DNA from: Candidatus Thiodictyon syntrophicum
GTDB taxonomy: Bacteria; Pseudomonadota; Gammaproteobacteria; Chromatiales; Chromatiaceae
Length of the DNA: 64,000 nt
Assembly (NCBI RefSeq): GCF_002813775.1
Contig: NZ_CP020370.1
Coordinates: 1 to 64,000 of the forward strand
Direction: 5' to 3'
The position numbers and the translations under genes were made by a program. Positions 16,719 through 59,501 of the stretch are shown here, in pieces. A model generated the notes under the pieces. The model had not been told where the DNA came from, ran no database searches, and saw only the letters and a program-made list of their open reading frames with translations. Numbering within the stretch: position 1 is the first letter of the stretch; every line of letters starts with the position of its first letter.

Positions 16719-16880
16719 AAAAGAAGTTTAGCCGCAAATGAACGCAAATTGACGCAAATAATCTAAAGACTTGCATTTACTGCATGTTTACTGTCCGGGT
16801 GACGCCCGCGACGATTCTAACCGGCAGATTTATTTGCGCTTATTTGCGTTCATTTGCGGCGAAATACTCTTCTTGGGATA
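16719..16880 (+). repeat. GCCGCAAAT palindromic repeat, copy 1
   Basis: The left arm GCCGCAAATGAACGCAAAT (16731-16749) is the exact reverse complement of the right arm at 16842-16860, with a core of about 90 bases containing CCGGGTGACGCCCGCGACGAT. The right end reads AAATACTCTTCTTGGGAT. The element fills most of the gap between two convergent small genes. Related copies lie near 30.5, 46.7 and 59.4 kb. Confidence 0.85.
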
Positions 16881-16935
16881 CTCCGCCTCCCCCCGTGTGG
16901 GAGCCGGCGGGGTCGGGGGCGCAACGCTTACCGTG

Positions 16936-17160
16936 TCAAATGCGCGACGAACCGACGATCTGATGCGCCAGGTCCACCACGCGGTTGGCCATCGCCATAT
17001 ATTCCTGCGGATAGCCCGCCAGCGGTCCCCCGCCCGTGCCCCAGTAGTCCTTGCCGCCGACGCCATGCTCATGCTCGTAGGCGATGAACCGCTGTTGCAT
17101 CGCGTGCATCTTGTCGATCAGTGCCTGTTTCTCGGTCTTCAACGCATCAAGGTCGCTCAT
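16936..17160 (-). CDS. Uncharacterised 74-residue protein
   Basis: The ATG at 17160 has a strong ribosome site (GGGGGAGA), which picks this start from a longer open frame extending upstream. The first 30 residues are a charged amphipathic helix (MSDLDALKTEKQALIDKM). A glycine-rich middle (GVGGKDYWGTGGGPLAGY) and a second helix follow. It has no signal peptide or cysteine. I do not recognise the family; it could be a small structural or adaptor protein. It stands alone on the minus strand between the repeat copy and trmL. Confidence 0.55.
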   Translation of the reverse strand: MSDLDALKTEKQALIDKMHAMQQRFIAYEHEHGVGGKDYWGTGGGPLAGYPQEYMAMANRVVDLAHQIVGSSRI

Positions 17161-17334
17161 GAACGTCTCCCCCAGGGGGTTTGGGTCGAAAGTGGTCGGC
17201 GAATTTAGTAAATTCGGAAGTCTTAATATACCATGCAGATCCGAGCCCTGGTCAACCCGGCCCCCGACCCCGTCTACCACCCGGACCTCCCTGCGCGGGA
17301 GGGCGTCCCCACGCGCGCCCGCGCCTGACTGACA

Positions 17335-17811
17335 ATGTTCCATCTCATTCTTTACCAACCGGAAATCCCGCCGAACACCGGCAATGTGATGCGCCTGTGC
17401 GCCAACGTCGGCGCGACCCTGCACCTGATCGAGCCCCTTGGCTTCAGCCTGGATGACCGGCGCCTGCGGCGCGCCGGCCTCGACTACCGCGAATGGGCGG
17501 ACGTGCGGGTGCACGCGTGCCTGCCCGACTGCCTCGTCGGACTGCCCCACGCCCGGGTCTTCGCCCTCAGCACCCATGGCCGGGTCCGCCATGACGCGCC
17601 GGCCTATCGGGCGGGGGACTGCTTTCTGCTGGGGCCCGAGACCCGCGGCCTGCCGCGCGATCTGCTCGAGGCCCTCCCCGCCGAGCGGCGCCTGCGCCTG
17701 CCCATGCAGCCCGGCAACCGCAGCCTGAACCTGTCGAACGCGGCGGCGGTGGTCCTCTTCGAGGCGTGGCGGCAGCATGGGTTCAGCGGGGCCTGTGAGC
17801 CGGAAACCTGA
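17335..17811 (+). CDS. trmL: tRNA (cytidine(34)-2'-O)-methyltransferase TrmL
   Basis: A SPOUT-class RNA methylase of 158 residues that in E. coli methylates the ribose of the wobble base in two leucine tRNAs. Family motifs are YQPEIPPNTGNVMRLCAN at the N-terminus, LLGPETRGLP in the middle and MQPGNRSLNLSNAAAVVLFEA in the cofactor knot. The start is ATG at 17335. The next gene, hsdM, begins one base after its stop codon, which is tight for functionally unrelated genes. Confidence 0.95.
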   Translation: MFHLILYQPEIPPNTGNVMRLCANVGATLHLIEPLGFSLDDRRLRRAGLDYREWADVRVHACLPDCLVGLPHARVFALSTHGRVRHDAPAYRAGDCFLLGPETRGLPRDLLEALPAERRLRLPMQPGNRSLNLSNAAAVVLFEAWRQHGFSGACEPET

Positions 17812-17812
17812 C

Positions 17813-19855
17813 ATGAGACTCACCCAACAACAACTCGAGGCCCACCTCTGGGGCGCCGCCAACATCCTGCGCGGCAAGACCGCCGGGCAGGACTACAAGA
17901 ACTACATCCTCTCGCTGATGTTCTATAAGCGCCTGTGCGATCAGTGGGAAAACGAGGCGGACGAGGCCATCGCGGAGCTTGAGCGTCAACAGGGGCGCGC
18001 CTTCACCGAGGCGCAGAAGGCGGTCTTCCGCGCCCGCGGCGCACACCGATTCTTCATCCCCGAGGACTGTCGCTGGGGCGACATGCTGGCCGTGTCGGTC
18101 AACCTGGGCGAAGAACTCACCCTGGCCATGCGCGCCGTCGCTGACGCCAATGAGGAACTCAAAGGCGTCTTCACCGTGGACTGGAATCAGCCGGCCCCGG
18201 ACGGGTCCGGCCGCCCGCTCATCCCCAATGAGGTGGTCTACGCGCTGATCCAGCACTTCAACAGCCACGACCTGTCCAACGCCAGCGTCCCCCCCGATGT
18301 GCTGGGCGGCGCCTACCAGTATCTGCTGAAGAAATTCGCCGACGACGCCGGGGCCAAGGCCGGCGAATTCTTCACCCCGCCCGAGGTCGTGGACACCCTG
18401 GTGCACATCCTGGAGCCACAGCCCGGCGACACCATCTACGACCCCACCTGCGGCAGCGGCGGTATGTTGGTCCATTCGGCCGACTTCTTGCGCGAGCAGG
18501 GCCACCGAGCAACTGCGGCCCAATATTTCGGCCAGGAGATGAACTGGAGCAACGCCGCCATCGGCAAGATCAACTCCGTGCTGCACGGGTTGGAGGCCCA
18601 GATCGTCGCGGGCGCCAGCACCATCACCGACCCGGCCTTTCGGGGCGCCGCGGGCAAGGTGCGCAAGTTCTCGCTGGTGCTGGCCAATTTCCCCTTCTCC
18701 GATGAATTCTGGTGGCTCAAGCCCGAATTCCAGACGGACGACAAGAAGAAAAAGGACAAGCTCAAAAAGGAGACCTTCGGCAAGGAAGGCTACAAAGACC
18801 CCTTCGGGCGCTTCGGGCGCGGCACCGCCTTCAAGGCCCCGCCGGCGGGCTATGGAGACTATGCCTTCATCCTGCACTGTCTCGCCTCGCTCACCGACAC
18901 CGGTCGCGCCGGTGTCGTCTGCCCGCAAGGCGTCCTGTTCCGCGGTCAGCCCGAGGTCGAGGAAGAGACCGGCGAGTTCGACGATGAAGGCAACCCCAAG
19001 GTCAAGCGCCGCAAGGCCGACGACGAGCACCTGATCCGTCGCGCCTTGCTCGAATCACGGCTCATCGACGCCGTGATCTCGCTGCCGCTCAATGTCTTTT
19101 ACGGTGCGGGCGTGCCGGCCTGTCTGCTGATCCTCAAAAAGCAGCGCCCACCCGAGCGGCACGACCAGGTGCTGCTGGTCTATGCCGCCCGCCACTACCG
19201 CGAACTCTCCAACCAGAACGAACTCCGCCCGCAGGACCTGATGCGCATCCTGGTCCATGCGCACGCCTATGGCGACCCGGCCAAGGTGCCGGACCTGGTG
19301 GCCCAGCACAGCCGGCGCATCGGCAAACAGATCGACGCCCGCGAGACCGATGAGGTGGAACGTCTGGAGGCCGAATACGCCGACTGGGCCGACACGCTCA
19401 CCCGACTGGAGACCCAACTGACCAAGGATAGTGCGGCGCTGGCCAACCTCACCGCCGGGGCCATCAGGGACAAGGCGAAGGTCGGACTCGCCCGGCTCCA
19501 GGCCCAGCGTGACCGGGCCGCCGCCAAGGTGGCCGAGCGCGACGAGAAGATCGCCGAGACTCGGCGCCGTGCAGATGACGACCGGCGCGATGTTGAAGTG
19601 TTCGGCGCCGAGTTGGGCGCGATCTACGGCGACCCGGACGAACTGATCAAGCACGCACGGGTCGTCGGCATTGATGAGGTCGAGGAAAACGAATTCAATC
19701 TGAATATTCCGCGGTATGTGGATACCTTTGACCCGGAGCCGCGGGTGGAGGTCAAGGACGCGCTGACGGCGCTCAGAGATGCTGAGAGTGCTCTGAAATC
19801 CGCCGAGGGCCAATTGCTAGCCTTGTTGCGGGGAGCGGGCTATGAAGCCAAGTGA
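17813..19855 (+). CDS. hsdM: Type I restriction-modification system, DNA methyltransferase subunit
   Basis: HsdM methylates adenine at the site chosen by HsdS. From the ATG at 17813 the protein has 680 residues and begins MRLTQQQLEAHLWGAANIL, the usual HsdM N-terminus; an upstream start at 17777 would lie inside trmL. The cofactor motif is DPTCGSGGML and the catalytic motif is NFPF, an accepted N-x-P-F form. The C-terminal third (about 500-680) is rich in charged helices and probably coiled coil. The gene overlaps hsdS by 14 bases. With hsdS broken, its target choice is in doubt. Confidence 0.95.
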   Translation: MRLTQQQLEAHLWGAANILRGKTAGQDYKNYILSLMFYKRLCDQWENEADEAIAELERQQGRAFTEAQKAVFRARGAHRFFIPEDCRWGDMLAVSVNLGEELTLAMRAVADANEELKGVFTVDWNQPAPDGSGRPLIPNEVVYALIQHFNSHDLSNASVPPDVLGGAYQYLLKKFADDAGAKAGEFFTPPEVVDTLVHILEPQPGDTIYDPTCGSGGMLVHSADFLREQGHRATAAQYFGQEMNWSNAAIGKINSVLHGLEAQIVAGASTITDPAFRGAAGKVRKFSLVLANFPFSDEFWWLKPEFQTDDKKKKDKLKKETFGKEGYKDPFGRFGRGTAFKAPPAGYGDYAFILHCLASLTDTGRAGVVCPQGVLFRGQPEVEEETGEFDDEGNPKVKRRKADDEHLIRRALLESRLIDAVISLPLNVFYGAGVPACLLILKKQRPPERHDQVLLVYAARHYRELSNQNELRPQDLMRILVHAHAYGDPAKVPDLVAQHSRRIGKQIDARETDEVERLEAEYADWADTLTRLETQLTKDSAALANLTAGAIRDKAKVGLARLQAQRDRAAAKVAERDEKIAETRRRADDDRRDVEVFGAELGAIYGDPDELIKHARVVGIDEVEENEFNLNIPRYVDTFDPEPRVEVKDALTALRDAESALKSAEGQLLALLRGAGYEAK

Positions 19856-21151
19856 TGCGCTCCCGCACCCTAGTGGTTGGCAGACTGAGATCGTTGGAAA
19901 CGCCATCGAAATTAAGCGCGGGGTGTCCTGGTCGAAAGATCAAGAGCATTCGGCTCCCTACGATGGAGCGGTCCGGGTGATTGGTATCAGCAATGTTCAG
20001 GAGCGGCTTGATCTGGACAAGACCCTGTATATTTCCGGTGTCAAGCCAAAAGCAGTCGAGAAAAAGCGCTTAGAGAAAGGTTGGTCGGTCATTGTGGGCT
20101 CTAACGGCAATCGACAGCGCATTGGCAACGCTGTATTTATTGCCGAGGATTCCGCGTTTCTGTTCGCGTCCTTCTTAATTGCGGCCAAGCCAAAGCAAGA
20201 AAGCCCGATTACGCCTGAGTTCTTCTTTCGTTGGCTGCGGACAGAACAGGTTCAGGCATATCTGAGCGCTTCATCGGAAGGGTCGACCGGGCTTAGCAAC
20301 CTAAGCCACAGTTTTTTCGTTCGATGTCAATTGCTTTTCCGGATGGTAAACAACAAACCGCTATTGCCCGAATTCTCGATGCCGCTGACATCGCAATTGA
20401 TCAAGCGCGGGAAGCTGCGACCCAAGCAGAGAGCGCCAAGAAATCGCTTATGCAAAAGGTGTTCTGTGAAGGGATTCGCAAAGAGCGACAGAAAAAGACT
20501 TCCGTCGGATTAATTCCGCAATCCTGGGATGCGAGACCGGTCAATGCGGTCGTAAAGAATTTCGAGTACGGCCTTTCACTGCCGATGCACCTAAAGGGTG
20601 CGACACCAATTCTCCGAATGGGCAACATTTAGCATGGTGATGTGCTGATGGACGACCTGAAGTACGTCACACTACCGCCAAAACTGCTTGACCGCTACCT
20701 GCTGAAAAGGGGCGATGTTCTTTTCAATCGGACGAACTCCCAGGAGCACGTCGGGAAAGTCGGAGTATATCGGTCTGATGCGCCTGCTGTCTTTGCGTCG
20801 TACCTAATTCGGCTGCATCCGGACGTAGAGCAGATCGACAACTATTATCTGGGCCAAGTGCTAAGCGCCTATCCGGCACAGTGCCGCATCAAGCGTTACG
20901 CAACGCCTGGCGTACAACAAGTCAATATCAACGCCAAGAATCTTGGCAAGGCGCTGATCCCGATTCCGACAGGAGCGGCCGGACTTGAAGAACAACACCA
21001 GATCGCCGCCCTGTTGGAACAGGCCGATGAGCGGGTACGTTGTTACGGCCCGGTGCTCAAGAGTCTGGAGCAACTCAAAAAATCCCTGATGCACGACCTG
21101 CTCACCGGCGCCGTGCGGGTCAGCGATTGCGACCTTACGTTATCCCCATGA
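19842..21151 (+). pseudogene. hsdS: Type I restriction-modification specificity subunit, disrupted
   Basis: HsdS recognises the DNA target through two domains. The first (19842 to about 20300), the central conserved helix region (PDGKQQTAIARILDAAD), the second domain (about 20510-20950) and the C-terminal helices (QIAALLEQADERVRC...LEQLKKSLMHDLLTG) are all present but not in one frame. The frame shifts at a run of six T (20312-20317); seven T would restore SHSFFRSMSIAFPDG. A TAG stop at 20630-20632 interrupts GNI-HGDVLMDDLKYV, where relatives typically have Gln, so CAG to TAG is likely. Otherwise the length is normal. Either lesion alone would stop full-length HsdS; the T-run change could also be a sequencing error. 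Confidence 0.85.
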
Positions 21152-21167
21152 ACAGGCAAGAGTGACC

Positions 21168-21437
21168 ATGCCCACAATCACCCTGCACGATGTCCCGGAA
21201 ACGCTTCATCAACGGTTACAGCAGCGGGCGACCATCCACCATTGGCCCATCGACAAAGAGGTCATTCTCCTGTTGGAACAGCTTTTGGCGAAGGGCGCCG
21301 CACCGGCCCCGCAGTCACCCGAGGAGCGATTTGCGGCGATCATCGATATCAGCCGACGCTGTGCCGCATTACCGGAGCTTGACTCGCGAAGCGCGGATGA
21401 GATCGTCGGTTATGACGAAAACGGTTGGCCCGCGTAA
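21168..21437 (+). CDS. FitA/VapB-like ribbon-helix-helix antitoxin, apparently without a toxin
   Basis: An 89-residue protein with an N-terminal ribbon-helix-helix DNA-binding domain (MPTITLHDVPETLHQRLQQRA, quoted in part) and a C-terminal toxin-binding tail ending DEIVGYDENGWP, both typical of FitA/VapB antitoxins. The ATG at 21168 fits better than a GTG six bases earlier. The PIN toxin that normally starts within a few bases is absent: the stop is followed at once by a short hairpin repeat. The gene sits between broken hsdS and the minus-strand cassette. Confidence 0.7.
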   Translation: MPTITLHDVPETLHQRLQQRATIHHWPIDKEVILLLEQLLAKGAAPAPQSPEERFAAIIDISRRCAALPELDSRSADEIVGYDENGWPA

Positions 21438-21447
21438 GGCAATCTGA

Positions 21448-21480
21448 CAGTCGGGTTAAGCTCCGCTAACCCGACCTACG
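21448..21480. repeat. TCGGGTTA hairpin repeat, left copy
   Basis: TCGGGTTA (21451-21458) and TAACCCGA (21467-21474) form a hairpin followed by CCTACG. The same motif recurs at 22157-22188 in the same orientation, so the two copies bracket the small minus-strand gene pair. Similar GTAGGTCGGGTTAGC repeats are widespread in proteobacterial genomes. Confidence 0.6.
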
Positions 21481-21721
21481 CGGCGCGGGCAACGGAAGAC
21501 GGCCGCAACAGCGATTCCGGACGAAAATCCGCACCAAGATGCAGATCGGCCGGCGTGATGTCCAGCGCGGCACACTGTGACAAGAGCGTTGACAGTGCCT
21601 CGTAATAGCCCATCAGACGCCCTTCGTCATAGGCGGACGACGCATCCAAGGCCCCAGCCGCGTCTTTCAGAGACTGGGCGGTCTCCTCCAGGACCAGCAG
21701 TGCGTCTTGCTGTTTGCTCAT
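21476..21721 (-). CDS. Uncharacterised 81-residue protein, second gene of a small cassette
   Basis: A short acidic helical protein (MSKQQDALLVLEETAQSL at the N-terminus) with the motif YDEGRLMGYYEALSTLLSQ, and no signal peptide or membrane segment. Its ATG overlaps the stop of the upstream gene (21718-21721), so the two are translationally coupled. The stop codon lies within a hairpin repeat. I do not recognise the family. Size, pairing and placement inside a restriction locus resemble toxin-antitoxin or defence accessory pairs, but that is inference. Confidence 0.55.
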   Translation of the reverse strand: MSKQQDALLVLEETAQSLKDAAGALDASSAYDEGRLMGYYEALSTLLSQCAALDITPADLHLGADFRPESLLRPSSVARAA

Positions 21722-22023
21722 GGATCGGCCTCCGCTAGAATTTGCTCCAGGATTTCAATTTGCTCGGTAAAGTTGGCGATCTCTTTCGGCCAATACTGGT
21801 TGACGAGGTGGCTGAGTTGACGCTCGGGAAGCTCAGGCGATACCCATTTCAGCGGGTTTGCGATCTTGTCTCGGTGGACTTCGACCTGATTGCGCAACGA
21901 GCGGATCGCACGCGTCACCTCACCGGTCGATTTCGTCGCATGTCCGAGCAGAAAGCCCGCGTGGCGCCCGCCTGACTTTGCGATCTCGTAGGCCGATGAT
22001 TTCATCAAGGTTGAGTATAACAT
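21718..22023 (-). CDS. Uncharacterised protein of about 100 residues, first gene of a small cassette
   Basis: Two ATG codons are possible, at 22023 and 22005; the second gives MKSSAYEIAKSGGRHAGFL. TATACT lies just upstream of the 22005 ATG and could be a -10 producing a nearly leaderless message. The protein is basic and mainly helical, with IRSLRNQVEVHRDKIANP and a conserved-looking QLSHLVNQYWPKEIANF. No known catalytic motif is visible. It overlaps the downstream 81-residue gene by four bases. Confidence 0.55.
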   Translation of the reverse strand: MLYSTLMKSSAYEIAKSGGRHAGFLLGHATKSTGEVTRAIRSLRNQVEVHRDKIANPLKWVSPELPERQLSHLVNQYWPKEIANFTEQIEILEQILAEADP

Positions 22024-22382
22024 GGCGGTTCGGCTCGATTCCCGCGCGCAGCCCTTGTCGAGCCCGCGGCCTGTAGGTCGGGTTAGGTGCGCCCTTCGGG
22101 ACTTGCCGTCTACACCGAAGATGCCGCACGCCGCAACCCGACAAGGCAACCTGGCTGTCGGGTTACGCTCCGCTAACTCGACCTACGCCCCGGCTGAGCT
22201 TCGACGCCAATCGCCTCTCGCCATGATATACCGGAAAAACAACGAGCTGGCATTCTTAGGATCGCCTCGAAGACCGGCAGCTAACAAAGAGGTTAGCAAA
22301 GCCCTGGTGTGTCGCGGTAGGCTAAAATGCTGATGTAGAAAGTATTTCATTTGATAGCTCTTTGATTGGGAACAACTGAACC
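22024..22382. other. 359-base gap before hsdR with hairpin repeats
   Basis: No gene is seen. The gap carries GTAGGTCGGGTTAGG at 22073-22087 and a fuller hairpin unit at 22157-22188 (TCGGGTTA...TAACTCGA, one mismatch). The remaining 190 bases before hsdR are less GC-rich and should contain its promoter; no clear -10/-35 pair was found. Confidence 0.5.
22157..22188. repeat. TCGGGTTA hairpin repeat, right copy
   Basis: This copy closely matches the unit at 21448-21480 in the same orientation, with TGTCGGGTTACGCTCCGCTA followed by ACTCGACCTACG. It marks the right side of the two-gene cassette. Confidence 0.6.
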
Positions 22383-29053: not shown

Positions 29054-30493
29054 ATGCCCACACCCACTTATCACAGACTCCTGACCTGGATCGGCATCGT
29101 CGGCGCGGCCACGGCCTGCGTGGGCGTCGCCCTGGCGGAGCCGCCGGCGGGTGCCGCCCCCGCGGCGGCACCCGCTCCAGTGGTGGCACCCGCCCCCGCG
29201 GCGGAGCCCGCACCAGTGGTGGCACCCGCACCCGCGGCGGTGCCCACCCCCGCGGCGGAACCCAGCTCCACCCCCGCCCCCGCGGCGGCCGACGCCTTGC
29301 CCCTCGACGACCTGCGCACCTTCGCCGAGGTCTACGAACGCATCAAGGACGATTATGTCGAGGGCGTGAAGGACAAGACCCTGCTGGAGAGCGCCATCCG
29401 CGGTATGCTCTCGGGGCTCGATCCGCACTCGTCCTACCTGGACAAGGACGAGTACCGGGAGATCCAGGTGGGTACCACCGGCGAGTTCGGCGGCCTCGGC
29501 ATCGAGGTCGGGATCGACGACGGGTTCGTGAAGATCATCTCCCCGATCGACGACACCCCGGCCCAGCGCGCCGGGCTCCAGGCCGGGGACCTGATCACCC
29601 GCATCGACGACAAGCCGGTCAAGGGCCTCGCCCTCAATGAGGCGGTCAACCTGATGCGCGGCAAGCCCGGCACCGAGATCCGCCTCACCATCATGCGCGG
29701 CAGCGAGGGCCGACCCCTGGAGGTGAAGGTGCAGCGCGACATCATCCATGTGGCGAGCGTCAAGAGCCGCACCCTGGAGCCGGGCTTCGGCTATCTGCGC
29801 CTGAGCCAGTTCCAGGCGCGCACCACCGAGGACATGCGCACCGCGATCGAGGCCCTGAAGAAGGAAAACAAAGGTGAGATCAAGGGCCTGATCCTAGACC
29901 TTCGCAACAACCCCGGGGGGGTGCTGAACGCGGCCGTGGGGGTGAGCGACGCCTTTATCACCGACGGGTTGATTGTGTATACCCAGGGTCGGCTGCCGGA
30001 CTCCAAGCTCCAGTTCAAGGCCGGCCCGGACGATGTGCTCGGCGGCGCCCCCCTGGTGGTGCTGGTCAACGGCGGCAGCGCCTCGGCCTCGGAGATCGTG
30101 GCCGGCGCACTGCAGGACCACAAACGGGCCCTGATCATGGGGACCCAGACCTTCGGCAAGGGGTCCGTCCAGACCATAGTCCCGATCGATGAGACCACCG
30201 CGCTCAAGCTCACCACCGCGCGCTATTACACGCCCTCCGGGCGCTCCATCCAGGCCCAGGGCATAGCCCCGGACGTCGTACTGGAGCGCGGGGAGTTCAA
30301 ACCCAGAGAGGAGTCGGAGGTCGGCTCGGTGAAGGAGTCGGACCTGCGGCGCCATCTCGATTCCCCGCCGCCGCCCGACGAGGCGAAGGCCGACGACAAG
30401 AAAAAGACCCTCGCGGCCGAAGACCTCCAGCTTGCCGAGGCCCTGAACGTGCTCAAGGGGTTGACGATCCTGGGCCGCAGTAAGGGCAACTAA
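29054..30493 (+). CDS. ctpA: C-terminal processing protease (S41 family)
   Basis: A periplasmic serine protease that trims proteins at their C-termini and affects envelope turnover. The 479-residue protein has a signal peptide (about 1-28), then a Pro/Ala/Val-rich tether (about 30-78) built from near-identical PAPVVAPAPAAE units. A PDZ domain follows (GGLGIEVGI... to about 225), then the S41 catalytic domain. The nucleophile serine lies in NGGSASASEIVAG (near 340) and the base lysine in TFGKGSVQT (near 370). The C-terminal 60 residues are charged. Confidence 0.93.
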   Translation: MPTPTYHRLLTWIGIVGAATACVGVALAEPPAGAAPAAAPAPVVAPAPAAEPAPVVAPAPAAVPTPAAEPSSTPAPAAADALPLDDLRTFAEVYERIKDDYVEGVKDKTLLESAIRGMLSGLDPHSSYLDKDEYREIQVGTTGEFGGLGIEVGIDDGFVKIISPIDDTPAQRAGLQAGDLITRIDDKPVKGLALNEAVNLMRGKPGTEIRLTIMRGSEGRPLEVKVQRDIIHVASVKSRTLEPGFGYLRLSQFQARTTEDMRTAIEALKKENKGEIKGLILDLRNNPGGVLNAAVGVSDAFITDGLIVYTQGRLPDSKLQFKAGPDDVLGGAPLVVLVNGGSASASEIVAGALQDHKRALIMGTQTFGKGSVQTIVPIDETTALKLTTARYYTPSGRSIQAQGIAPDVVLERGEFKPREESEVGSVKESDLRRHLDSPPPPDEAKADDKKKTLAAEDLQLAEALNVLKGLTILGRSKGN

Positions 30494-30504
30494 CCCCAGA
30501 CAGC

Positions 30505-30656
30505 AGGGTTGAGCCGCAAATGAACGCAAATAGACGCAAATAATCATCGTGCTACCGTATTCTGCCCGGTACCCGTCGGGTCCACCCCAGGGCATCTCTC
30601 AGCAGCCGATCTATTTGCGCTTATTCGCGTTCATTTGCGGCCAAATACTCTTCGTT
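30505..30656 (+). repeat. GCCGCAAAT palindromic repeat, copy 2
   Basis: The left arm GCCGCAAATGAACGCAAAT (30513-30531) pairs with the right arm at 30623-30641, one base different (ATTCGCG for ATTTGCG). The core differs from the other copies and lacks the CCGGGTGACG block. It starts about a dozen bases behind the ctpA stop codon and precedes the DJ-1 family gene. Confidence 0.85.
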
Positions 30657-30715
30657 TGGCTGAGGCGCGCGGCAAGCCTTTGGGCGGGGTCGATCAACAA
30701 CACAGGAGCTTTCCC

Positions 30716-36217: not shown

Positions 36218-36250
36218 CCGGGGAGAACGCACCCGTGACACCGCGCAGCG

Positions 36251-36393
36251 GCCTTGATCATAACCTCGGCGACCCTGCCAGGAGTGAGGTCGCCGGTCCG
36301 CACAGCGGACCCTACGGCCCCGCGCCCGTAGGGTCCGCTGTGCGGACCACCCGCCTCGCAGTCGGTGCAGTGGCCGGGATTATGATCAAGGCC
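36251..36393. repeat. GGCC-bordered hairpin element, copy A
   Basis: The borders GCCTTGATCATAA and TTATGATCAAGGC are inverted repeats. Inside, two perfect 23-base arms (36295-36317 and 36326-36348) form a long hairpin, and each arm itself contains GGTCCGC...GCGGACC. The 10-base sequence CCGCGCAGCG occurs immediately on both sides (36241-36250 and 36394-36403), as a target-site duplication would. It lies between gspE and gspF. Confidence 0.8.
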
Positions 36394-36471: not shown

Positions 36472-36511
36472 CATTCGCGTTCAATTGCGGCTTAATCGCC
36501 TTTTTCAGGAT
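36472..36511 (+). repeat. Degenerate right-end fragment of the GCCGCAAAT repeat
   Basis: CATTCGCGTTCAATTGCGGC followed by a T-rich stretch and CAGGAT resembles the right end of the full copies, with several changes. Its terminal AGGA lies six bases before the gspF GTG and appears to serve as its ribosome site. Confidence 0.55.
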
Positions 36512-36516
36512 CAACC

Positions 36517-41805: not shown

Positions 41806-41891
41806 GGCCTTGATTATAACCCCGGCCACCCTGCCAGGCGGGAGGTCGCCGGTCCGCAATCGATGCAGTGGCCGGAATTATGATCGAGGCC
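41806..41891. repeat. GGCC-bordered hairpin element, copy B (short form)
   Basis: Borders GGCCTTGATTATAA and TTATGATCGAGGCC match copy A at 36.3 kb, as do the adjacent segments CCACCCTGCCAGG and GAGGTCGCCGGTCCGC. The long central hairpin of copy A is missing, so this is an internally deleted copy. Confidence 0.75.
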
Positions 41892-45357: not shown

Positions 45358-46647
45358 GTGAATGACATCCCGCTGACCGGACTCCTGGTCGCCCTCGTGG
45401 CCCTGCTCCTGTGCTCCGCCTTCTTCTCGGGGACCGAGACGGCGCTCTTCACCCTGAACCGCTACCGCCTGCGCCACCAGGCCGATCAGGGTCATCGGGG
45501 TGCCCGCCTGGCCCGGGTCCTGCTGGAGCGCCCGGACCGCCTGATCGGCCTGATCCTGCTCGGCAACAACTTCGTCAACATCCTGGCCTCATCGATCAGC
45601 ACCATCATTGCCCTGCGCCTCGGCGGGGAGGCGGCCATCGGGATCGCGGCCGGGGTTCTGACCTTCCTGGTCCTGATCTTTGGTGAGGTCACACCCAAGA
45701 CGCTCGCCACCCTCAACCCGGAGCGCCTGGCCTACCCGGCCGCCTATGTCTATACACCGCTGCTGAAGGTCCTCTATCCCGTAGTGTGGTTGGTCAACTT
45801 GTTCGCTAACGGGCTGTTGTGGCTGATTGGGGTGCGCTCCGGACCTGGGCCGGGCTCGGCCCTCAGCCGGGAGGAACTGCGCACCGTGGTGAGTGAGTCC
45901 AGCGCCCTGATCCCGGAGCAAAGCCGCTCCATGCTGCTCGCCATCCTGGATCTTGAGCGGGCGACGGTGGAGGACATCATGATCCCCCGCAACGAGGTGG
46001 AGGGCATCGATATCCAGGACGACGCCGACGAGATCATCGCGGCCATCCGCAACGCCGGCTATACCCGTCTGCCGCTGTTCGACGGCGGCATCGACAACGT
46101 GATCGGCGTCTTCCACTCCCGTAACGCCCTGCACGCCATGCTCGACCAGGGGCTCGGCAAGGAGCACCTGCGGGCCATCGCCCAGGCGCCCTATTTCGTC
46201 CCCGAGGGTACCCCACTCTACCAGCAACTGCTCAATTTCCAGCGCGAGAAGCAGCGCATCGCCCTGGTGGTCGACGAATACGGCGACTTCATGGGCCTGA
46301 TTACCCTGGTGGACCTGTTGGAGGAGATCGTCGGAGAGTTCACCACGGACCCCTCCGACAGCATCGCCGAGATCCACCGCGGCGAGGACGGGAGCCTGCT
46401 CGTGGATTGCGGCATCGGGGTGCGCGACCTCAACCGGGCGCTGCGCTGGGACCTGCCGACGGATGGACCCAAGACCCTCAACGGCCTGGTGTTGGAGTAT
46501 CTGGAGACCATCCCCGAGCCTGGTACCAGCCTGATGCTGCACGGCCATCCGATGGAGATCATCCAGACCACCGAGAATACGGTGAAGACCGTCAAGCTGC
46601 CGCCGCGCCAGGGCCGCAAGGCCCGCCGGCCGGAGCGGCGTGGATAG
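45358..46647 (+). CDS. CNNM/CorC-type membrane transporter (YfjD family)
   Basis: A 429-residue integral membrane protein. The DUF21 membrane domain (about 1-190) begins LLLCSAFFSGTETALFTLN and has FGEVTPKTLATLNPE. Two CBS domains follow (VEDIMIPRNEVEGID, VDEYGDFMGLITLVDLLEE), then a CorC/HlyC-type C-terminal domain (about 345-415). Relatives move magnesium or cobalt ions. It starts with GTG six bases behind amrA, so it is probably in the same transcript. Confidence 0.9.
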   Translation: MNDIPLTGLLVALVALLLCSAFFSGTETALFTLNRYRLRHQADQGHRGARLARVLLERPDRLIGLILLGNNFVNILASSISTIIALRLGGEAAIGIAAGVLTFLVLIFGEVTPKTLATLNPERLAYPAAYVYTPLLKVLYPVVWLVNLFANGLLWLIGVRSGPGPGSALSREELRTVVSESSALIPEQSRSMLLAILDLERATVEDIMIPRNEVEGIDIQDDADEIIAAIRNAGYTRLPLFDGGIDNVIGVFHSRNALHAMLDQGLGKEHLRAIAQAPYFVPEGTPLYQQLLNFQREKQRIALVVDEYGDFMGLITLVDLLEEIVGEFTTDPSDSIAEIHRGEDGSLLVDCGIGVRDLNRALRWDLPTDGPKTLNGLVLEYLETIPEPGTSLMLHGHPMEIIQTTENTVKTVKLPPRQGRKARRPERRG

Positions 46648-46650
46648 CCC

Positions 46651-46814
46651 TCAAAAGAGTATTTGGCCGCAAATGAACGCAAATAAGCGCAAATAAATCT
46701 CCTGGTTGGCATTGTTGCAGGCGTCACCCGAATGGTGAACGTGCAGCAAAGGCCAAGCCTCTGATTATTTGCGTCAATTTGCGTTCATTTGCGGCTAAAC
46801 TGCTTTTTTGGGAT
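46651..46814 (-). repeat. GCCGCAAAT palindromic repeat, copy 3 (inverted)
   Basis: The arm GCCGCAAATGAACGCAAAT (46666-46684) pairs exactly with 46777-46795. Read on the minus strand, the core (TCAGAGGCTTGGCCTTTGCT, then GGGTGACGCCTGCAACAATG) closely matches copy 4 at 59.4 kb, so this copy is in the opposite orientation. It lies between convergent genes, where its long hairpin could end transcription from both sides. Confidence 0.85.
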
Positions 46815-46873
46815 AACCAGGAAAGTGCTCATGTCAAAGTGAAGAGGGGCGACGCTCAGTCTGGAACGGCCCA

Positions 46874-50410: not shown

Positions 50411-50640
50411 AGGGCGGGTCCGTGCAGGGCGGGTCTGAGTCGGGCGGGGGAACGCTAAACGCCCCACCGGAAAAGATCAACACCCGAACGCGCCCGCGCG
50501 AGTCCTCTTGTGACACCGCTCCAGCGGTTTCACGCCTGTGTCAGGCGCTCCGCGCCCCGGGCGTCGTTCAACGCCGCCAGGGGGCAGTCCGCATGAGAGA
50601 CTAGGGGAACCGCACCGAGACCCCCATTGCCGCAGCCCCC

Positions 50641-51444: not shown

Positions 51445-51476
51445 AGCCTCCAGTGGCAAACGGCTTGTTTCGGCCG

Positions 51477-52149: not shown

Positions 52150-52324
52150 GTTTCCAGTCTGTTCTGCGTGCGGCCAAACTCGGCCATTACCCCGGACGAA
52201 CCAGCAATCTGACCAGCGCTCGTTGCAGCAGGGAATCGGGCTTCGCGCAGATTCTAGCGGGCGGTTCTCGAAAGCAGCCAGCCTCGCGGTCAGTCGGAAT
52301 TAATTCGAGCCCGGCCCAGCTTCT

Positions 52325-55203
52325 CTATCCGTGGGAGATACAGCGCTGTGTGATCAAGTCCTGCACCAACCTTAGCTCTACAATCAAGCTCTCGTCTGTC
52401 GGCGCCAGACTCGACGCCTGGGTCAAGATGACCTCGGACTCACTTAGGACGGCACAACCGAGTGCCATCGCTTCTTGGTTGAGGAGCAGCGCACCTAGCT
52501 GGTGCAATGTTTTTCCTTTGTTGCTCAGAACCAATGCATCACTCGAAGTGCGCCGTAGCGCAGCATCTAAAGCCTCAATGCTTTTCTCATAAGCAGATTT
52601 TGCCGCTGGCAAGTCTCCAAGCGATACGTAAAGCGCGCCGAGCTTATTCAAGGCAGAACCTTTGTTATTGTGAGCCACAACATATTCAGGGGCAATCTTT
52701 AGCGTCTCATCGCATGCGGCCACGGCTTCCAAGAAAGCGATTTTGGCATCAGAGTTATGCCCAGTCTTTGAAAAAATCATTCCAAGACCTACGAGAGCCC
52801 CAGCTTTCGTTGGATTTGCAAATACATGATTGGGATCCACTTTCAGCGTGTTGTCAAACCCGTGCACTGCGGACTGGTACGCTGAAATAGCTCCGCCATC
52901 ATCTCCATGAGCCATCAAATGATCTCCGAGGAATCGCAGAACATTACCTCTGTTATAATGAAAGCGCGCGTCTCTTGGCGTCAACTTCAGCGCCGTTTCA
53001 AACTCAGCTATCGACGCATTGAAAAATTGTACGGCAGCATCTGGGTCGGAATTTGAAATCGATGCTGCTAGTCCAGCGAGGCCGATTCCCTTATGGGCGC
53101 GAGCAGGCGCAAATGTCGGATCGATTTCAAGTGCTTTATCGAAACTAAAGATCGCTTCGCGGTAATCTACGTCGGCGCGGGCTTTGTCGTCTAATCTCAC
53201 CCGCAGGTCTCCTAGCCTAAACTGGGCAGAACCCTTGAGGTCCAGGGCATCTAGCAGGTTTGAATCACTCTGAAGCGCATCATCGCAGTGCATTATCGCG
53301 TCGCGCAGAGTCTGCTCAGCTAGTCGGTTATCTTGAAGGAAACCTGCGGACTCCCCGGTAAGCCAAGCAACGTTGGCGGCAGAAAGATCTGTCTTGAGCG
53401 TTAAAGCCACTCTGATATCAGTCAGTGCTTGGGCTACTCCATAACATGCCCCATTGACAGATTCGCGCATGATTGCGGTCCATTCATTATAACCGCGTTC
53501 CCAATTCTGCCGATTGGCGTGATAGATCACTTCGGCGATGGCGACCGGCTCGGTTTCGGCACGCTCGCGGTAGATGGCCTCCAGAGCGGCATGGGCCTGC
53601 TGCATTTGCGCCGGGTCCTCCTCGGCGAGCAGGCGCCGCAGCAGGTCATGGATGCGGTAGCGGTCGCGCTCGGGGCTGGTCCAGCAGAAAGAGAAGCGGG
53701 TGAGGGTCTCGAAGTCCGGCCGCTCGTGGCGGAAGTGCAGGCGCTCACCCAAGGCGTAGAAGAGTGCCTCGTCGAAGCCGCGGGCGGCGGCCAGTGCCTT
53801 GACCGCGTGGGCGACGGCCTCGGGGCAGTATCGCAACAGCCGCTCGACCATGGCCGCACGATGGTCGGTGTGCTCAGGGGCCACGGCAAAGGCTGCGGCG
53901 GTGAGACGTTGCCCCCGTTTGTTCGCCAAGCAGAAGATATCGGCAGCGAGTCCGAGATAGAGCGGGTGGACCTGATCCTCGGCGACCTCGGCACTGCGGA
54001 TCATGGCCTCGATCAGTGCCTCGTCTTGGGCGGGATTGGGCTGGTCCGCGGCGGATGCGACGACGAGAGGGCCGCAATCCTCGGCTGGGTCGGTGAAGTT
54101 GGCCGGAGCGAGTGCCCGGCAGAGATAGTCGCGGGCGTCGGCCCGGCCCCAGTGTCCGACCAGTTGGCAGTCGATGCGTTCGGCTTCGATCTTGTCCGCG
54201 ACGGCCTCGGCCCAGCGCGGCGGCTCGCGGCCGGCAATGACGACGACGATACCGCGGTTGGGCTCGCCGATCGGATAGAGCCCATTGACGAGTCGGCGCA
54301 GCCAGGCGTCCTCATCAAAATAGGACTGCCGGGACCGGGACTGTTCGCGGTCACCCCCCAGAAGGCCTCGTGCGTGTCGAACAGCAGCACCAGGCGCGGC
54401 ACGGCCCCGGGGCGCTGCATCCAGACGTTGAGGTCGTTGGCAAACAGGCGCGGCAGGGCGTTGAGTGCGTTATCCAGGGCGCTCGGGTCGCGGTCGGTAT
54501 CGAACAGGGTATCGAGCCGCTTGCGGGTCGCGGCGTCGATGCCGCGCTGCGCAAGCAGGAGTTGCAGGTTGCCCTGCCAGTCGGGGGCGACCACCTCGAG
54601 GCCCCGCGCCAGCAGATTGAGGATCGGGCCTTGATCGGCCGTCAGGAAATCGACACCGGCACCCAGCGCATCCAATTCCTCTACCGGGAGTAACTGCTTG
54701 AGTTGATCGGCACTGAGACGATCGGTGGCGCGCAGCCAGCGGGTGACGGCATAGTCGAAGGTCGGCAGCTTGAAGCCGGACTTGGTCAACTGCTTGCGCA
54801 GCATCAACAGGGCGGGCCAGGCGTCCTGGGGGTTCCCCTCGCTCGCGTCGGTCGCCGCGAAGTCGTGCCAGATGCAGGGGACCTTGATGCTGTCCCCCGA
54901 GCCGTCCGCGCCGACCAAGGCGCGATAAGCGTCGAGACAGGCCTGGTGGCCGACGCGGGTGTCCGGCTGGCCGTCGCAATGTGCCCACTCATCCGGCGGC
55001 AGGAGGCGGCAGAACTGCGCGCGCAGGTGCTTGAGCAGCAGTGACTTACCGGTGCCGCCGTCGCCATGGAAGAAGATCGGCCGCGGTTCGGGCGGCCGGG
55101 AGTGCAGATAGTGGGCGAACCGCCGCCGCTCGCTCAGCCGGTCGGTGAATAGGTCCAGTGCCCGGGGATGGGCGGTCAGGCTCGCTTGGTCGTCGCCGGG
55201 CAT
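52325..55203 (-). pseudogene. P-loop NTPase (STAND-like) with C-terminal TPR repeats, frameshifted
   Basis: One gene split into two frames. The 5' part, from an ATG at 55203 with an AGGAG site, encodes a P-loop domain (FFHGDGGTGKSLLL near residue 40) through LVLLFDTHEAFWG. The frame then breaks at a run of six G on the minus strand (54354-54359). Seven G would continue into DREQSRSRQSYFDEDAW and IVVVIAGREPPRW, then the C-terminal TPR array (about 53,000-52,400). Repaired, the protein would have about 959 residues, a STAND-like signalling layout. The TPR half is clearly less GC-rich than the P-loop half. Function unknown. A sequencing error at the G run is possible. Confidence 0.75.
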
Positions 55204-55582
55204 GGATGACTCCTGGAGCACTCGGGGCATTAGAGGGCTTTGCGGGGTGAAATCCGCGGAGGTTACGAGGCGGATTCTAACCGGGGATTGCCTTTCCCGC
55301 GCGCGACGGCAGTGCCCGAGGCGAGGGGCTGCTGCGGTACTACCGGAAACGCAGGGCATCCGAAGCGCCCTCGACGGTGTGCGAGGGGCTGGCGCGGCGT
55401 TCGGTCCGCACAGCGGACCCTACGGCGCCCGTAGGGTCCGCTGTGCGGACCAACGACCTCCCGGCGAGCGCCGTGGCCGGGACCACGATTGAGGCCAGCG
55501 CACGAACCGCCGCCCGCGCGCTCCCCGCCACGCCGGGGGCAGTCTATACTGCGCCCTTTTCCGCATTCTAAGGGCAGATTCG
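55204..55582. other. 379-base gap between the P-loop/TPR gene and argG
   Basis: This divergent gap contains a GGCC-type hairpin element (copy D) and otherwise GC-rich sequence. No clear promoter hexamers were found. The argG ribosome site is weak. Confidence 0.5.
55403..55496. repeat. GGCC-bordered hairpin element, copy D (left border lost)
   Basis: Two perfect 23-base arms (55403-55425 and 55429-55451) are identical in sequence to the central hairpin of copy A, with a three-base CGC loop. The right border GCCGTGGCCGGGACCACGAT plus TGAGGCC ends at 55496. No matching left border was found. Confidence 0.75.
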
Positions 55583-56803
55583 ATGGCAAAGGGCAAGATC
55601 AACAAGGTGGTGCTGGCCTACTCAGGGGGCCTGGACACCTCGGTTATCCTCCGCTGGCTGCAGGAGAACTACGGCTGCGAGGTGGTGACCTTCACGGCCG
55701 ACATCGGCCAGGGGGAGGAGGTGGAGCCGGCGCGCGCCAAGGCGACGGCGGCCGGGGTCAAGGAAATCCATATCGATGATTTACGAGAGGAATTCGTGCG
55801 GGACTTCGTGTTCCCGATGCTGCGCGCCAACGCGCTCTACGAGGGCGAGTACAAGCTCGGCACCTCGATCGCCCGCCCGCTGATCGCCAAGCGCCTGGTG
55901 GAAATCGCGGTCGCCACCGGGGCGGACGCTATCTCTCACGGGGCGACCGGCAAGGGCAACGACCAGGTCCGCTTCGAGCTGACCGCCTATGCGCTCAAGC
56001 CCGACATCCAGATCATCGCCCCCTGGCGGGAGTGGGACCTGCTGTCGCGCGAGAAGCTGCTGGCCTATGCCGAGACCCATGGCATCCCGGTCGAGATGAA
56101 GCGCGACGGCACCAAGTCACCCTACTCGATGGATGCCAACCTGCTGCACATCTCCTACGAGGGCTATGACCTGGAGGACCCCTGGGTCGAGCCCGGCCCC
56201 GATATGTGGCGCTGGACCGTCGCCCCCGAGCAGGCCCCGGACCGCCCGACCGAAATCACCCTGAGCTTCGCCGGCGGTGACTGCGTGGCCGTCGATGGCA
56301 AGACCCTGAGCCCGGCGGACCTGCTGGCCGAGTTGAACCGCATCGGCGGCGCCAACGGCATCGGCCGCGACGACATCGTCGAGAACCGCTTCGTCGGCAT
56401 GAAGTCGCGCGGCTGCTACGAGACCCCCGGCGGCACCATCCTGCTCAAGGCGCACCGCGCCATGGAGTCCCTGACGCTCGACCGGGAGGCGGCGCATCTC
56501 AAGGACGAACTGATGCCCCGCTACGCGAGCCTGGTCTACAACGGCTTCTGGTACAGCCCCGAGCGCCTGATGCTCCAGGCCGCCATCGACCAGACCCAGA
56601 GCGTCGTCAACGGCGAGGTGCGCCTCAAGCTCTACAAGGGCAACGTGCTGGTGGTCGGGCGCCGCTCCCCGACCGACAGCCTGTTCGACGCCTCCATCGC
56701 CACCTTCGAGGAGGATGCCGGGGCCTATAATCAGGGGGATGCGACGGGGTTCATCCGGCTCAATGCGTTGCGGCTGCGGGTGGCTGGGCGCAAGCGAGGC
56801 TGA
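55583..56803 (+). CDS. argG: Argininosuccinate synthase
   Basis: ArgG joins citrulline and aspartate using ATP in arginine biosynthesis. The 406-residue length is typical. The nucleotide-binding PP-loop is [15 protein letters not shown], and [27 protein letters not shown] and [16 protein letters not shown] are diagnostic. The start is ATG at 55583 ([16 protein letters not shown]). No other arg gene lies near it. Confidence 0.97.
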
Positions 56804-56894
56804 GCCTTTGGGGCCTGGGGCGGCGGCGCCTTGGCCGCTGCCGGTCCTGGGTCACGATGCCCACCCCAAGCGATTTGGTCTCGGAGGACGACGC

Positions 56895-57567
56895 ATGCTG
56901 ACTCGAGTCAAACTGAAGAATTTTGGCCCGCTGAATACTCTTGTCACTCCAGCAAATCATTCTAAAATCTCGCGAGCAAGACAATGTCTTTGGTTTTGAT
57001 GACACTTATCTGGATTTGGCTAGGGCGCTCCGGCAGCAGACAACGAAAGGCAAGAACTATGCTGAATTCGCTGCGTCACGATCACGTCTCGAAAAACTGC
57101 TTGGGGGCGTGGTTGAATATGATCAGGCGTCGGGCCGCTGGCAGTTCGTTACGGGTCGCCAACGGTTTCCGATCGGTGTGACGGCCGAAGGGATCAAGAA
57201 GATCGCGATCCTCGACACGCTGCTCGGCAACCGGTATCTCGATCCAAGCTCGATCGTGATCATTGATGAACCTGAGTCCGCCCTGCATCCTACCGCTATT
57301 TCGGAACATGAGCTTCCTGCATCGTTTAAAGTGCTCGATCTGGCGAAGGCAGACTTTCGGCTGGTGCTGGTGATTAAGGGAGACCCGAGTCCCTGGCCTG
57401 AAGCATGGCTGCCGCCCATCAAAGATGAGCTGGCGTTAAGGCTCCAGCCCCTGGTCAACACCTGGCGACTCTCGCCAACAGCCGTGATGGTCTTCAACGA
57501 AGCCTTGGCAAAGCAATACGGATTGATTCTTGGCCAGCCTTCAGCTTCAACGCCAGCCCAAGGCTGA
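56895..57567 (+). pseudogene. Remnant of an AAA-type ATPase gene, internally deleted and fused
   Basis: The ATG at 56895 begins MLTRVKLKNFGPLNTL, the usual N-terminus of SMC/ABC-like AAA ATPases. The Walker A segment that should follow is missing, and the frame changes near 56941. The rest, in another frame, has Walker B IVIIDEPESALHP. It then runs directly into RLVLVIKGDPSPWPEAWLPP, which looks like the C-terminus of a different small protein. So a two-gene ATPase cassette appears to have lost the middle of the first gene and the junction. The tract is less GC-rich than argG. Confidence 0.65.
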
Positions 57568-57618
57568 AGCCTTGGACTCCAGAATAGACCGTGGGAAACC
57601 AACGGTGAGGACCGACCC

Positions 57619-58239
57619 ATGAACCAGATCGCCGCCCGTCTCCTTCCCGATGGCCTGGAGCCGGCCTGGGACATCGCGCGCCTGTTCCCGCCGCAGGGGG
57701 GATGGAGCGAGGAGGAATATCTCAGCCTGCCGGGGAACCATCTGACCGAATTCGACCATGGGCGAGTCGAGGTGCTGGAGATGCCGAGTGAGTCCCATCA
57801 ACTGTTGGTGGCGGCGCTGTACCGCGCGCTGATGGCATTTGTCGGTGTATCGCGGCTCGGCACGGTCTTGTTTGCGCCCTTTCCCGTCAAGCTTTGGGAG
57901 GGTAAGCTGCGGGAGCCGGATATCGTTTTCATGCGCCGCGAACATGCCGAACGCCGCCATGACAAATACTGGCAAGGCGCCGATCTGGTGATGGAGGTCA
58001 TGAGCACCGATGACCCTAAGCGGGACCGCGAAACCAAGCGGCGCGAGTACGCGATAGCGGGGATTCCCGAGTATTGGCTGGTTGACCCGACGCGCCAGAC
58101 CATTACCGTCTTCATACTTGCCGCCGATGCCGATTGTTATACCGTCCGCGGTGTCTATGGTTGCGGACAAGAGGCGGCGGCCGAGAGCCTCCCGGGCTTT
58201 GTTATCGACGTGCGGGCGTTGTTTGAGAACGACCTCTAG
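57619..58239 (+). CDS. Uma2 family putative endonuclease
   Basis: A 206-residue Uma2 protein with a clear nuclease-like core: WSEEEYLSLPGNHLTEFDHGR (quoted in part), LREPDIVFM, and DLVMEVMSTDDPKRDRETK followed by REYAIAGIPEYWLVDP. These give the expected E-D-E-K arrangement of the PD-(D/E)xK fold. It is longer and closer to the family standard than the member at 37.8 kb. ATG start. It lies just behind the ATPase remnant and may have arrived with it. Confidence 0.88.
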   Translation: MNQIAARLLPDGLEPAWDIARLFPPQGGWSEEEYLSLPGNHLTEFDHGRVEVLEMPSESHQLLVAALYRALMAFVGVSRLGTVLFAPFPVKLWEGKLREPDIVFMRREHAERRHDKYWQGADLVMEVMSTDDPKRDRETKRREYAIAGIPEYWLVDPTRQTITVFILAADADCYTVRGVYGCGQEAAAESLPGFVIDVRALFENDL

Positions 58240-58300
58240 CGCCCCATTCGATCGCAATGTATTGGATAACCAGCGAAATCAACAGGCTCAACCGGCTCGT

Positions 58301-59227
58301 CTACCGGCTCTTGACCAATGCCCCATAGGCACCACTGGACAAAAAGACCCCCAAGGTCACCGCCGCAATGCCGAAATAGTCTGCGGGCCTCGGCACCTCC
58401 CCGAGCAGCGGTATCGCCGCCAGCATCGCGAGCACCGGCACCAGCGAGGCGAAGCTCGAGCCCAGGGAGGCCCCGAGGATGCTCACGGCCTTGGTGTAGG
58501 CAAAGAGCGAGATGATCGCCACCAGGACGCCCTGATAGAGCGTCTGGATCGCCACGGCATCCCAGGGCGCCGCGGTGATACGGTGCGGCAGGAGCATGAC
58601 GTAGACCGGCAGGTACCAGGCGGCGGACACCACCGAGACCACCGCGGTTGCGTGCAGCGCGGTGAAGCCTTTGGTGCCGGCGCGGCGCATCGCCACGGTG
58701 AAGCTGGCCCAGCACAGTGCGGCCAGGAGAAACAGGAGCTGTCCGCGCCAATTGCCGGAGGCCAGGTCAGTCAGACCGGTGCCGACCAAGATCACGATGC
58801 CGACTGGAATCAGCAGCAGTCCCGCCCGGCGCGGCCCCGCGATACGCTCGTGCAGGAAGAGGGTCGCGAGCAGTGCGGCCCACAATGGCATGGTGCCGGG
58901 GATCAGTGCACCGGCCTGCGCCGCCGGTGCGAACTGCAGGCCGGCCGAGGAGATGAGTACATAGGGCACGCCGGCGCCGGTACAGATGACGGCGAGCAGC
59001 GGCAGGCCGACCCGGCGGACTCCCAGCCCGTCGCGGATCACGATCGGCAGCAGCAGGGCGCCCGCGCAGCCGAACCGCAACGCGGTGATGTCGAAGGGGG
59101 AAAGGGAGGTCGTGACGCCATAGCGGGTCAGCAGGATCCAGCCCACCCAGATCGAGATGGCAAAGAGCCCCCACAGGGCCCCGGTGATATAGGATGAACG
59201 CTGCAGGGGGATGGCGAGCGAAGACAT
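58301..59227 (-). CDS. DMT-superfamily (EamA) transporter
   Basis: A 308-residue inner-membrane protein with ten predicted membrane helices in two EamA repeats (about 20-150 and 165-300). Each repeat has the typical endings (LLATLFLHERI, MLAAIPLLGEVP). The ATG at 59227 gives MSSLAIPLQRSS; an extended upstream frame is rejected. Relatives export amino acids or other metabolites, but the substrate cannot be read from sequence. It stands alone between a Uma2 gene and a repeat. Confidence 0.88.
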   Translation of the reverse strand: MSSLAIPLQRSSYITGALWGLFAISIWVGWILLTRYGVTTSLSPFDITALRFGCAGALLLPIVIRDGLGVRRVGLPLLAVICTGAGVPYVLISSAGLQFAPAAQAGALIPGTMPLWAALLATLFLHERIAGPRRAGLLLIPVGIVILVGTGLTDLASGNWRGQLLFLLAALCWASFTVAMRRAGTKGFTALHATAVVSVVSAAWYLPVYVMLLPHRITAAPWDAVAIQTLYQGVLVAIISLFAYTKAVSILGASLGSSFASLVPVLAMLAAIPLLGEVPRPADYFGIAAVTLGVFLSSGAYGALVKSR

Positions 59228-59337
59228 GGGTGGGCAGTGACCGCGGATGTCGGAGAAGAGGCGCAGGGCGAACCAGCAGAGCTTAACCCGTCGCGTGGAA
59301 ACCCGAAAGCCGCGCGGCCGGGATGATCGATGACTCC

Positions 59338-59501
59338 AGAAAAAGCAGTTTAGCCGCAAATGAACGCAAGTGAACGCAAATAATCAGAGGCTTGGCCTTT
59401 ACTGCCTGTTCGCCGTCCGGGTGACGCCCGCGACGATGCCAACCAACAGATCTATTTGCGCTTATTTGCGTTTATTTGCGGCCAAATACTCTTCTTAGGA
59501 T
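59338..59501 (+). repeat. GCCGCAAAT palindromic repeat, copy 4
   Basis: The left part begins GCCGCAAATGAACGCAA at 59353 and pairs with the right arm near 59461-59482 with a few mismatches. The core shares CCGGGTGACGCCCGCGACGAT with copy 1. The right end reads AAATACTCTTCTTAGGAT. The octamer GATGACTC occurs on both sides (59329-59336 and 59499-59506), possibly a target duplication, though it overlaps the element's GGAT end. Confidence 0.85.

Follow-up and report, generated by a model that had tools for sequence, protein, structure and literature searches.

Hairpin-forming MITE-like elements of Candidatus Thiodictyon syntrophicum and a predicted GxxExxY nuclease gene lying between the same arms

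What are the palindromic repeats that recur along the first 64,000 nucleotides of contig NZ_CP020370.1 of Candidatus Thiodictyon syntrophicum (the whole of this stretch being hereafter called the window), and which protein would move them? The genome (GCF_002813775.1) comprises 7,738,984 bases in three contigs, with a chromosome of 6,837,296 bases; it is referred to below as G000 and its relatives by numbers from G001 onwards. The repeats are non-autonomous elements of about 160 nt, comparable to miniature inverted-repeat transposable elements (MITEs), and their mobility is near certain. We infer that they are probably moved in trans by nucleases of the GxxExxY family, a gene for one of which is enclosed by the same arms at 5.31 Mb.

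The initial annotation had listed four copies and two fragments, and the arm matches confirmed this count: at three mismatches or fewer, the arm GCCGCAAATGAACGCAAAT has ten matches in the window (two of them overlapping) vs. 0.01 expected. Matches with 0–3 mismatches lie at 16731/16842(-), 30513/30623(-), 46666/46777(-), 59353/59464(-) and 36473(-), corresponding to four complete copies at 16.7, 30.5, 46.7 (inverted) and 59.4 kb, all with the arms described as common, and to two right-end fragments at 13.5 and 36.5 kb (Table 1). The core said to be shared by three copies is indeed common to those at 16.7, 46.7 and 59.4 kb (86–88% alike), but the motif cited for it does not hold at 46.7 kb, which reads TTCGGGTGACG and not CCGGGTGACG; core comparison also bore out the different core of the 30.5-kb copy. 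As for the proposed hairpin, single-stranded DNA folds of all four copies are far better than those of shuffled sequences (z scores of -6.5 to -9.4; 0/200 shuffles as good in each case). The copies adjoin or separate long open reading frames (ORFs), although an element is in places overlapped by long ORFs, for the most part on the opposite strand; their placement between genes is likely rather than proven, since a listed ORF overlapping an element is no evidence of a gene. No named Rfam family was recognised, the scan of the window giving 0 matches at the gathering threshold.

Table 1. Positions of the elements, their fragments and their target duplications in the window
Feature	Position	Strand	Remarks
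Right-end fragment	13488..13514	+	right end only
Complete element, main core type	16710..16876	+	outer ends approximate; arm matches; no clear target duplication
Complete element, different core	30497..30657	+	outer ends approximate; arm matches; no clear target duplication
Right-end fragment	36473..36512	+	arm with 2 mismatches
Target duplication of the 46.7-kb element, left copy	46642..46649	+	GGATAGCC
Complete inverted element of 161 nt, main core type	46650..46810	-	arms 46666-46684 and 46777-46795; G006 without element
Target duplication of the 46.7-kb element, right copy	46811..46818	+	GGATAACC; 7/8 match
Target duplication of the 59.4-kb element, left copy	59329..59336	+	GATGACTC
Complete element, 162 nt, main core type	59337..59498	+	arm matches
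Target duplication of the 59.4-kb element, right copy	59499..59506	+	GATGACTC; perfect match

As a whole, G000 possesses 152 exact arms (78 on the + and 74 on the - strand), vs. 0 for the reversed control pattern. Exact arms are lineage-specific: they occur in 6/28 genomes of the relatives search and in 2/369 genomes of the class, G000 being included in both. The copies were analysed in 60 stretches around exact chromosome arms and in the window, where pairs of arms up to 600 nt apart were sought; this sample yielded 59 paired copies and 14 single arm matches, the latter including shifted matches of the same arm. The arm-to-arm length is 117–225 nt in 58 of the 59 pairs (exactly 130 nt in 29 of them) and 348 nt in the remaining one, which carries a nested insertion. 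The main core is present in 38 pairs (at least 21/33 positions in a comparison without gaps, shuffled cores reaching 18 at most), and other cores stand in the same arms in 21, including the 30.5-kb copy of the window. Only the arms are common to all 59.

Each arm is made of three CGCAAAT boxes at 10-bp spacing, and the boxes should therefore face the same side of the helix. In a consensus of 36 copies, box positions are conserved at 0.88–1.00, vs. 0.47 and 0.54 for the first two positions of the second spacer on the left arm; since this spacer differs between the two arms, the stem has a standing mismatch there. Such fixed boxes with free spacers look, in the consensus, more like protein-binding sites than like the product of a pure pairing constraint. 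The inverted repeat extends past the arms to about CCCAGAAAAAG, where conservation drops, giving imperfect terminal inverted repeats of about 45–50 nt per end and an element of about 160 nt. Short length without coding capacity, terminal inverted repeats, target-site duplication and empty sites in relatives are the features by which these repeats are classed with MITEs. A plasmid search with the element gave no match. Exact arms were found in three stretches of viral contigs, and within the stretches examined these had neither a facing partner (up to four mismatches) nor a GxxExxY gene. Two viral contigs carry a single CGCAAAT arm directly behind a TAA triplet (L335, position 4014; L336, position 3764), with no GxxExxY gene in the stretch examined.

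One empty site is that of the copy L025, located near 489.3 kb of the G000 chromosome between TTGACCCG and ATGACCCG: G001 and G004 read GGCATGACCCG without the element, and the joined flanks form with them one continuous alignment, except for 6 extra nt in G000 beside the left duplication. By eye, the upstream frame still has its stop in the left duplication, and the downstream frame its start in the right one; in the relatives this stop and this start meet in an ATGA overlap. The same place holds an insert of about 350 nt in G006. The 46.7-kb copy is absent from G006, where the left flank aligns 200/200 up to the junction and the following bases, read by eye as CAGGAAAG, are those standing right of the element in G000, giving the duplication GGATAGCC / GGATAACC; the right flank is diverged further on. 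At the place orthologous to the 59.4-kb copy, G006 has another hairpin sequence. The 16.7-kb copy is missing from G006 together with about 38 adjoining nt, and the 30.5-kb copy from G006, G003, G004 and G001, with diverged flanks; neither absence proves an insertion, because the gap takes in other bases or the flanks have diverged.

Concerning target duplications, 8/59 copies have one that is at least 7/8 identical in the expected register, vs. 0.93 expected from mispaired flanks and a maximum of 4 in 500 shuffles; this register was narrowed after a first look, the wider one giving 8/59 vs. 2.25. All eight duplicated targets, a small number of sites, contain T-N-A-(N)-C, often a stop codon. 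When joined flanks of eight G000 copies were used as queries, three sites proved to be occupied in G006 as well, with flank overlaps of 8 nt (L056), 5 nt (L043) and 6 nt (L025); in G003, the overlap is 16 nt at the L056 place and 4 nt at the L023 place, and the remaining pieces had diverged or were interrupted by the end of a contig. L056 has itself been the target of a second repeat, inserted in its core with CGACGATGC on both sides (9-bp duplication).

The initial annotation had supposed a MITE mobilised by a protein encoded elsewhere, which fits the empty sites, the target duplications and the genomic context of one gene family. With the TIGR04256 profile (GxxExxY protein), two genes were found in G000, and matches in 13/28 genomes, own included. 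One of the two (5310572-5310913) is enclosed by CGCAAAT arms, as is one gene in G001; among the first 12 loci scanned for CGCAAAT boxes only these two were positive, the others having arms made of other boxes. In both, the frame has its first start codon inside the arm, the upstream neighbour is carA (Pfam) and the downstream one is presumably carB. The elements thus share their ends with a GxxExxY-bearing unit, and this match makes the nuclease the prime suspect for moving them. The gene found with matching ends is that of a predicted nuclease; no transposase was found inside such arms in a partial search. The second GxxExxY gene of G000, at 4.849 Mb, is flanked by CACAGATG arms and is placed between pglZ and brxL in a bacteriophage exclusion (BREX) operon (L301, chromosome 4830500-4850400), in which BrxB, BrxC, PglZ and BrxL were recognised by PADLOC. 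All 28 G000 matches of the CACAGATG pattern fall within about 17 kb of this gene.

The 5.31-Mb protein is a clear family member, scoring 142.5 bits with TIGR04256 (cut-off 35) and 139.4 bits with PF13366 (cut-off 22). Residues E36, D75, E85 and K87 (the E, D and ExK positions) show no variation among eight diverse members; among 63 members, E36 and D75 remain invariant and E85 and K87 are conserved in at least 90%. The structure model is confident (pLDDT 90.5), and the best PDB match given by Foldseek is SSO0001 (E 4.5e-4), which we take to be a Cas4 protein, with lambda-type exonucleases also among the best, all of them loose matches having TM-scores near 0.5 by query and root-mean-square deviations of up to 14; by sequence, no PDB chain was better than E 0.15. 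On residues and model, GxxExxY is a small predicted nuclease of the PD-(D/E)XK type. The ratio of nonsynonymous to synonymous substitutions (dN/dS) is 0.03–0.15 in 8/10 pairs and the other two are saturated; the G000/G001 pair has a dS of 2.4, near saturation. In the parts of the open literature consulted, no described role was found for GxxExxY, PDDEXK_3, PF13366 or TIGR04256, and mobility is not the topic there; no description was found either of the arms, of the other arm-type sequences or of a link between PDDEXK proteins and MITEs, a weak absence given thin coverage of subscription papers and none of preprints.

Inverted repeats around GxxExxY genes are not peculiar to this lineage. The family is present in 44/397 phylum genomes sampled, own included, and the loci analysed were the best 80 of 128 confirmed loci from named genomes, together with those of the relatives and of the phylum-wide search. 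In the best 80 (77 genes tested, three being dropped for short flanks), a best 24-nt inverted repeat of at least 20/24 was found for 52/77 genes vs. 0/135 shifted positions and 16/376 mispaired flanks, the latter control not being clean because arms are alike across loci. In the combined set (134 loci, 131 testable genes), repeats of at least 19/22 surround 84/131 genes vs. 0/439 shifted positions, and at 17/22 the figures are 115/131 vs. 27/439. Compared with other ORFs of the same loci, GxxExxY genes have repeats of at least 19/22 in 45/73 cases vs. 3/144. Arm type could be called for 92 of the 106 genes with at least 18/22, namely 56 ending in AT and 36 in AG, by a caller that was rewritten after its first version had left 26/106 undecided (now 14) and that is therefore not blind to the data. 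On a tree of 91 distinct labelled proteins, which leaves out the 25 genes below 18/22 and the 14 undecided, arm type changes twice, vs. a mean of 28.4 and a minimum of 21 in 1000 shuffles. G001 (L012, L247) and G005 (L253, L017) each contain both types, every type going with a separate protein clade, and the two even meet within one 5.3-kb locus (L166). Arm type following clade shows a long association of arms and gene rather than which of them binds which.

Considering the matching ends, the GxxExxY nucleases probably move the elements in trans. The arms would be the binding and cutting sites of the protein, which, probably as a dimer or larger assembly, would bind the phased boxes, cut at the element ends (perhaps on an extruded hairpin) and open the target by a staggered cut, leaving gaps for the host to fill and seal. 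Gene-bearing copies would represent the autonomous or a domesticated form and the hairpins passengers, in a scheme resembling that of repetitive extragenic palindromic (REP) sequences and REP doublets forming hairpins (REPINs), moved by REP-associated tyrosine transposases (RAYTs), with another, unrelated enzyme. A broader proposal is made more tentatively, as one that may well fail: a class of mobile elements spread over bacterial phyla would depend on GxxExxY as its sole transposition protein. With no DDE, tyrosine or serine transposase involved, this one PD-(D/E)XK nuclease would recognise helically phased end boxes and move its own gene and many hairpins, each enzyme clade with its own box type.

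Several observations weigh against a role of the nuclease in mobility. At the threshold of at least 7/8, 51/59 copies lack a duplication. The gene-bearing copy at carA/carB shows neither a target duplication nor an empty site in the relatives compared: this place has a single arm in G002, G005 and G007 (near-intact in G005, degraded in the other two), another hairpin type in G006 and other sequence near a contig end in G003, and the copy is old because its place in relatives shows single arms or other sequence. G006 has 41 exact arms, and in the stretches examined CGCAAAT arms are absent around all four of its GxxExxY genes. Other-type hairpins also occur in genomes where no matching gene was found, and the CTCACAAAG pattern has 24 matches in G000, yet such arms flank neither of the two GxxExxY genes there. 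Furthermore, inverted repeats reaching 18/22 are lacking around 25/131 GxxExxY genes, arm type could follow protein clade through linked inheritance alone, a transposase elsewhere in the genome is possible, and the SSO0001 match is loose (TM-score 0.54 by query and 0.38 by target, root-mean-square deviation 14).

The supposition that a hairpin type is found only where a matching gene occurs was partly true only. The CACAGATG pattern accompanies a gene with such arms in G000 and G005 and is also present in G002, G006 and G007; the CTCACAAAG pattern goes with such a gene in G002, G005 and G007 and is also present in G000, G006, G003 (2) and G001 (1). Beyond chromosomes, no GxxExxY relative was confirmed in the viral contigs searched, and eight plasmid records hold a GxxExxY protein, all below 60% identity. 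Hairpins of yet another type, CGTTGTC/GACAACG (L082, L193, L037), stand in G006 at carA/carB and at the place orthologous to the 59.4-kb copy, and in G000 inside one CGCAAAT element.

Among the alternatives, the strongest, which we consider unlikely, is that an ordinary DDE transposase making 8-bp duplications has these elements as its MITEs, with GxxExxY as a passenger gene between transposase-recognised ends. DDE elements show terminal repeats, 7–8-bp duplications and mobilisation in trans, all of which fit, as does the abundance of copies in G006 next to the lack of a matching GxxExxY gene there. Against it, the partial search found no transposase inside such arms: among the matches listed for G000, which reach to about 5.25 Mb of the chromosome, facing exact arms 0.35–6 kb apart occur at 4129943/4133946 and 4133835/4136672, at least one arm belonging in both cases to a complete short element, and Pfam revealed no transposase in the four ORFs tested in one longer stretch between facing arms. 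Moreover, the architecture recurs with GxxExxY inside and with arms that follow the protein clade.

An improbable explanation is that the hairpins are regulatory or processing sites, cut in RNA or DNA by GxxExxY to control neighbouring genes, their spread being old. It would suit the purifying selection on the protein, the carA/carB position common to G000 and G001 and the BREX operon: hairpins of the CACAGATG type, that of the resident GxxExxY gene, stand between several of its genes in G000, some in tandem at 120 bp, and in a like operon of G005 (L302, C90). The target duplications, the empty site and the nested insertion nevertheless show that copies moved, and the spacers vary while the boxes stay fixed, like DNA-binding sites. 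Movement of REP/REPIN elements by a RAYT is very improbable in spite of the hairpin-forming doublets, the high copy number and the lineage-specific arms, as the arms are about 45–50 nt long with three boxes, target duplications are present, and the consensus of 36 copies has no GTAG or CGTC tag at its foot (the core contains CGTC), leaving the REP-type label of the initial annotation unsupported in its strict sense. Movement of the IS200/IS605 type is not known to make target duplications, and neither is that of REP/REPIN elements.

Other repeats were also observed in the window. A second palindromic family, GGCCTTGATCATAACC ... GGCCGGGATTATGATCAAGGCC, is found at 36250-36393, 41806-41891 and 55392-55496, and the insert in L056 resembles it. 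An 18-bp GC-rich tandem repeat in five overlapping copies (29145-29270) lies inside the long ORF 29054-30493.

Mobilisation by GxxExxY, the preferred reading, gives this nuclease family a testable function, and the link may explain where hairpin repeats made up of CGCAAAT, CACAAAG, CACAGAT and similar boxes originate. Should the nuclease move DNA on its own, its transposition chemistry would belong to none of the known transposase classes; should it not, a different reason has to be sought for arm type and protein clade going together.

Compared with known systems, the elements resemble bacterial MITEs, as far as these are covered in the parts of PMC10969869 consulted, in being short, non-coding and numerous, with terminal inverted repeats and target duplications. 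They differ in that some copies with common arms have unrelated interiors and that the candidate parent enzyme belongs to a nuclease family for which no description as a transposase was found in the literature. Rpn/transposase_31 (PF04754) is likewise a PD-(D/E)XK nuclease tied to DNA mobility, although of another family, and cognate hairpin repeats are unmentioned in the portions of PMC5350276 consulted. The closest parallel is the RAYT-REP/REPIN system, for which the sections consulted describe genes flanked by inverted REPs, coevolution and a correlation of gene and repeats (PMC2817692; see also PMC3116915). Common to both systems are a gene enclosed by a pair of inverted palindromic repeats, hairpin doublets that are non-autonomous and scattered over the genome, and repeats that follow the protein clade. 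Unlike the tyrosine transposase of RAYT systems, the enzyme here is of the predicted PD-(D/E)XK type, the boxes are phased at 10 bp, target duplications of 7–8 bp are present, the GTAG/CGTC foot tag is absent and the correlation of gene and cognate repeat is only partial. The protein itself belongs to an already named family (TIGR04256/PF13366; GxxExxY, PDDEXK_3); newly reported here are the inverted arms flanking its gene and the hairpins that match them.

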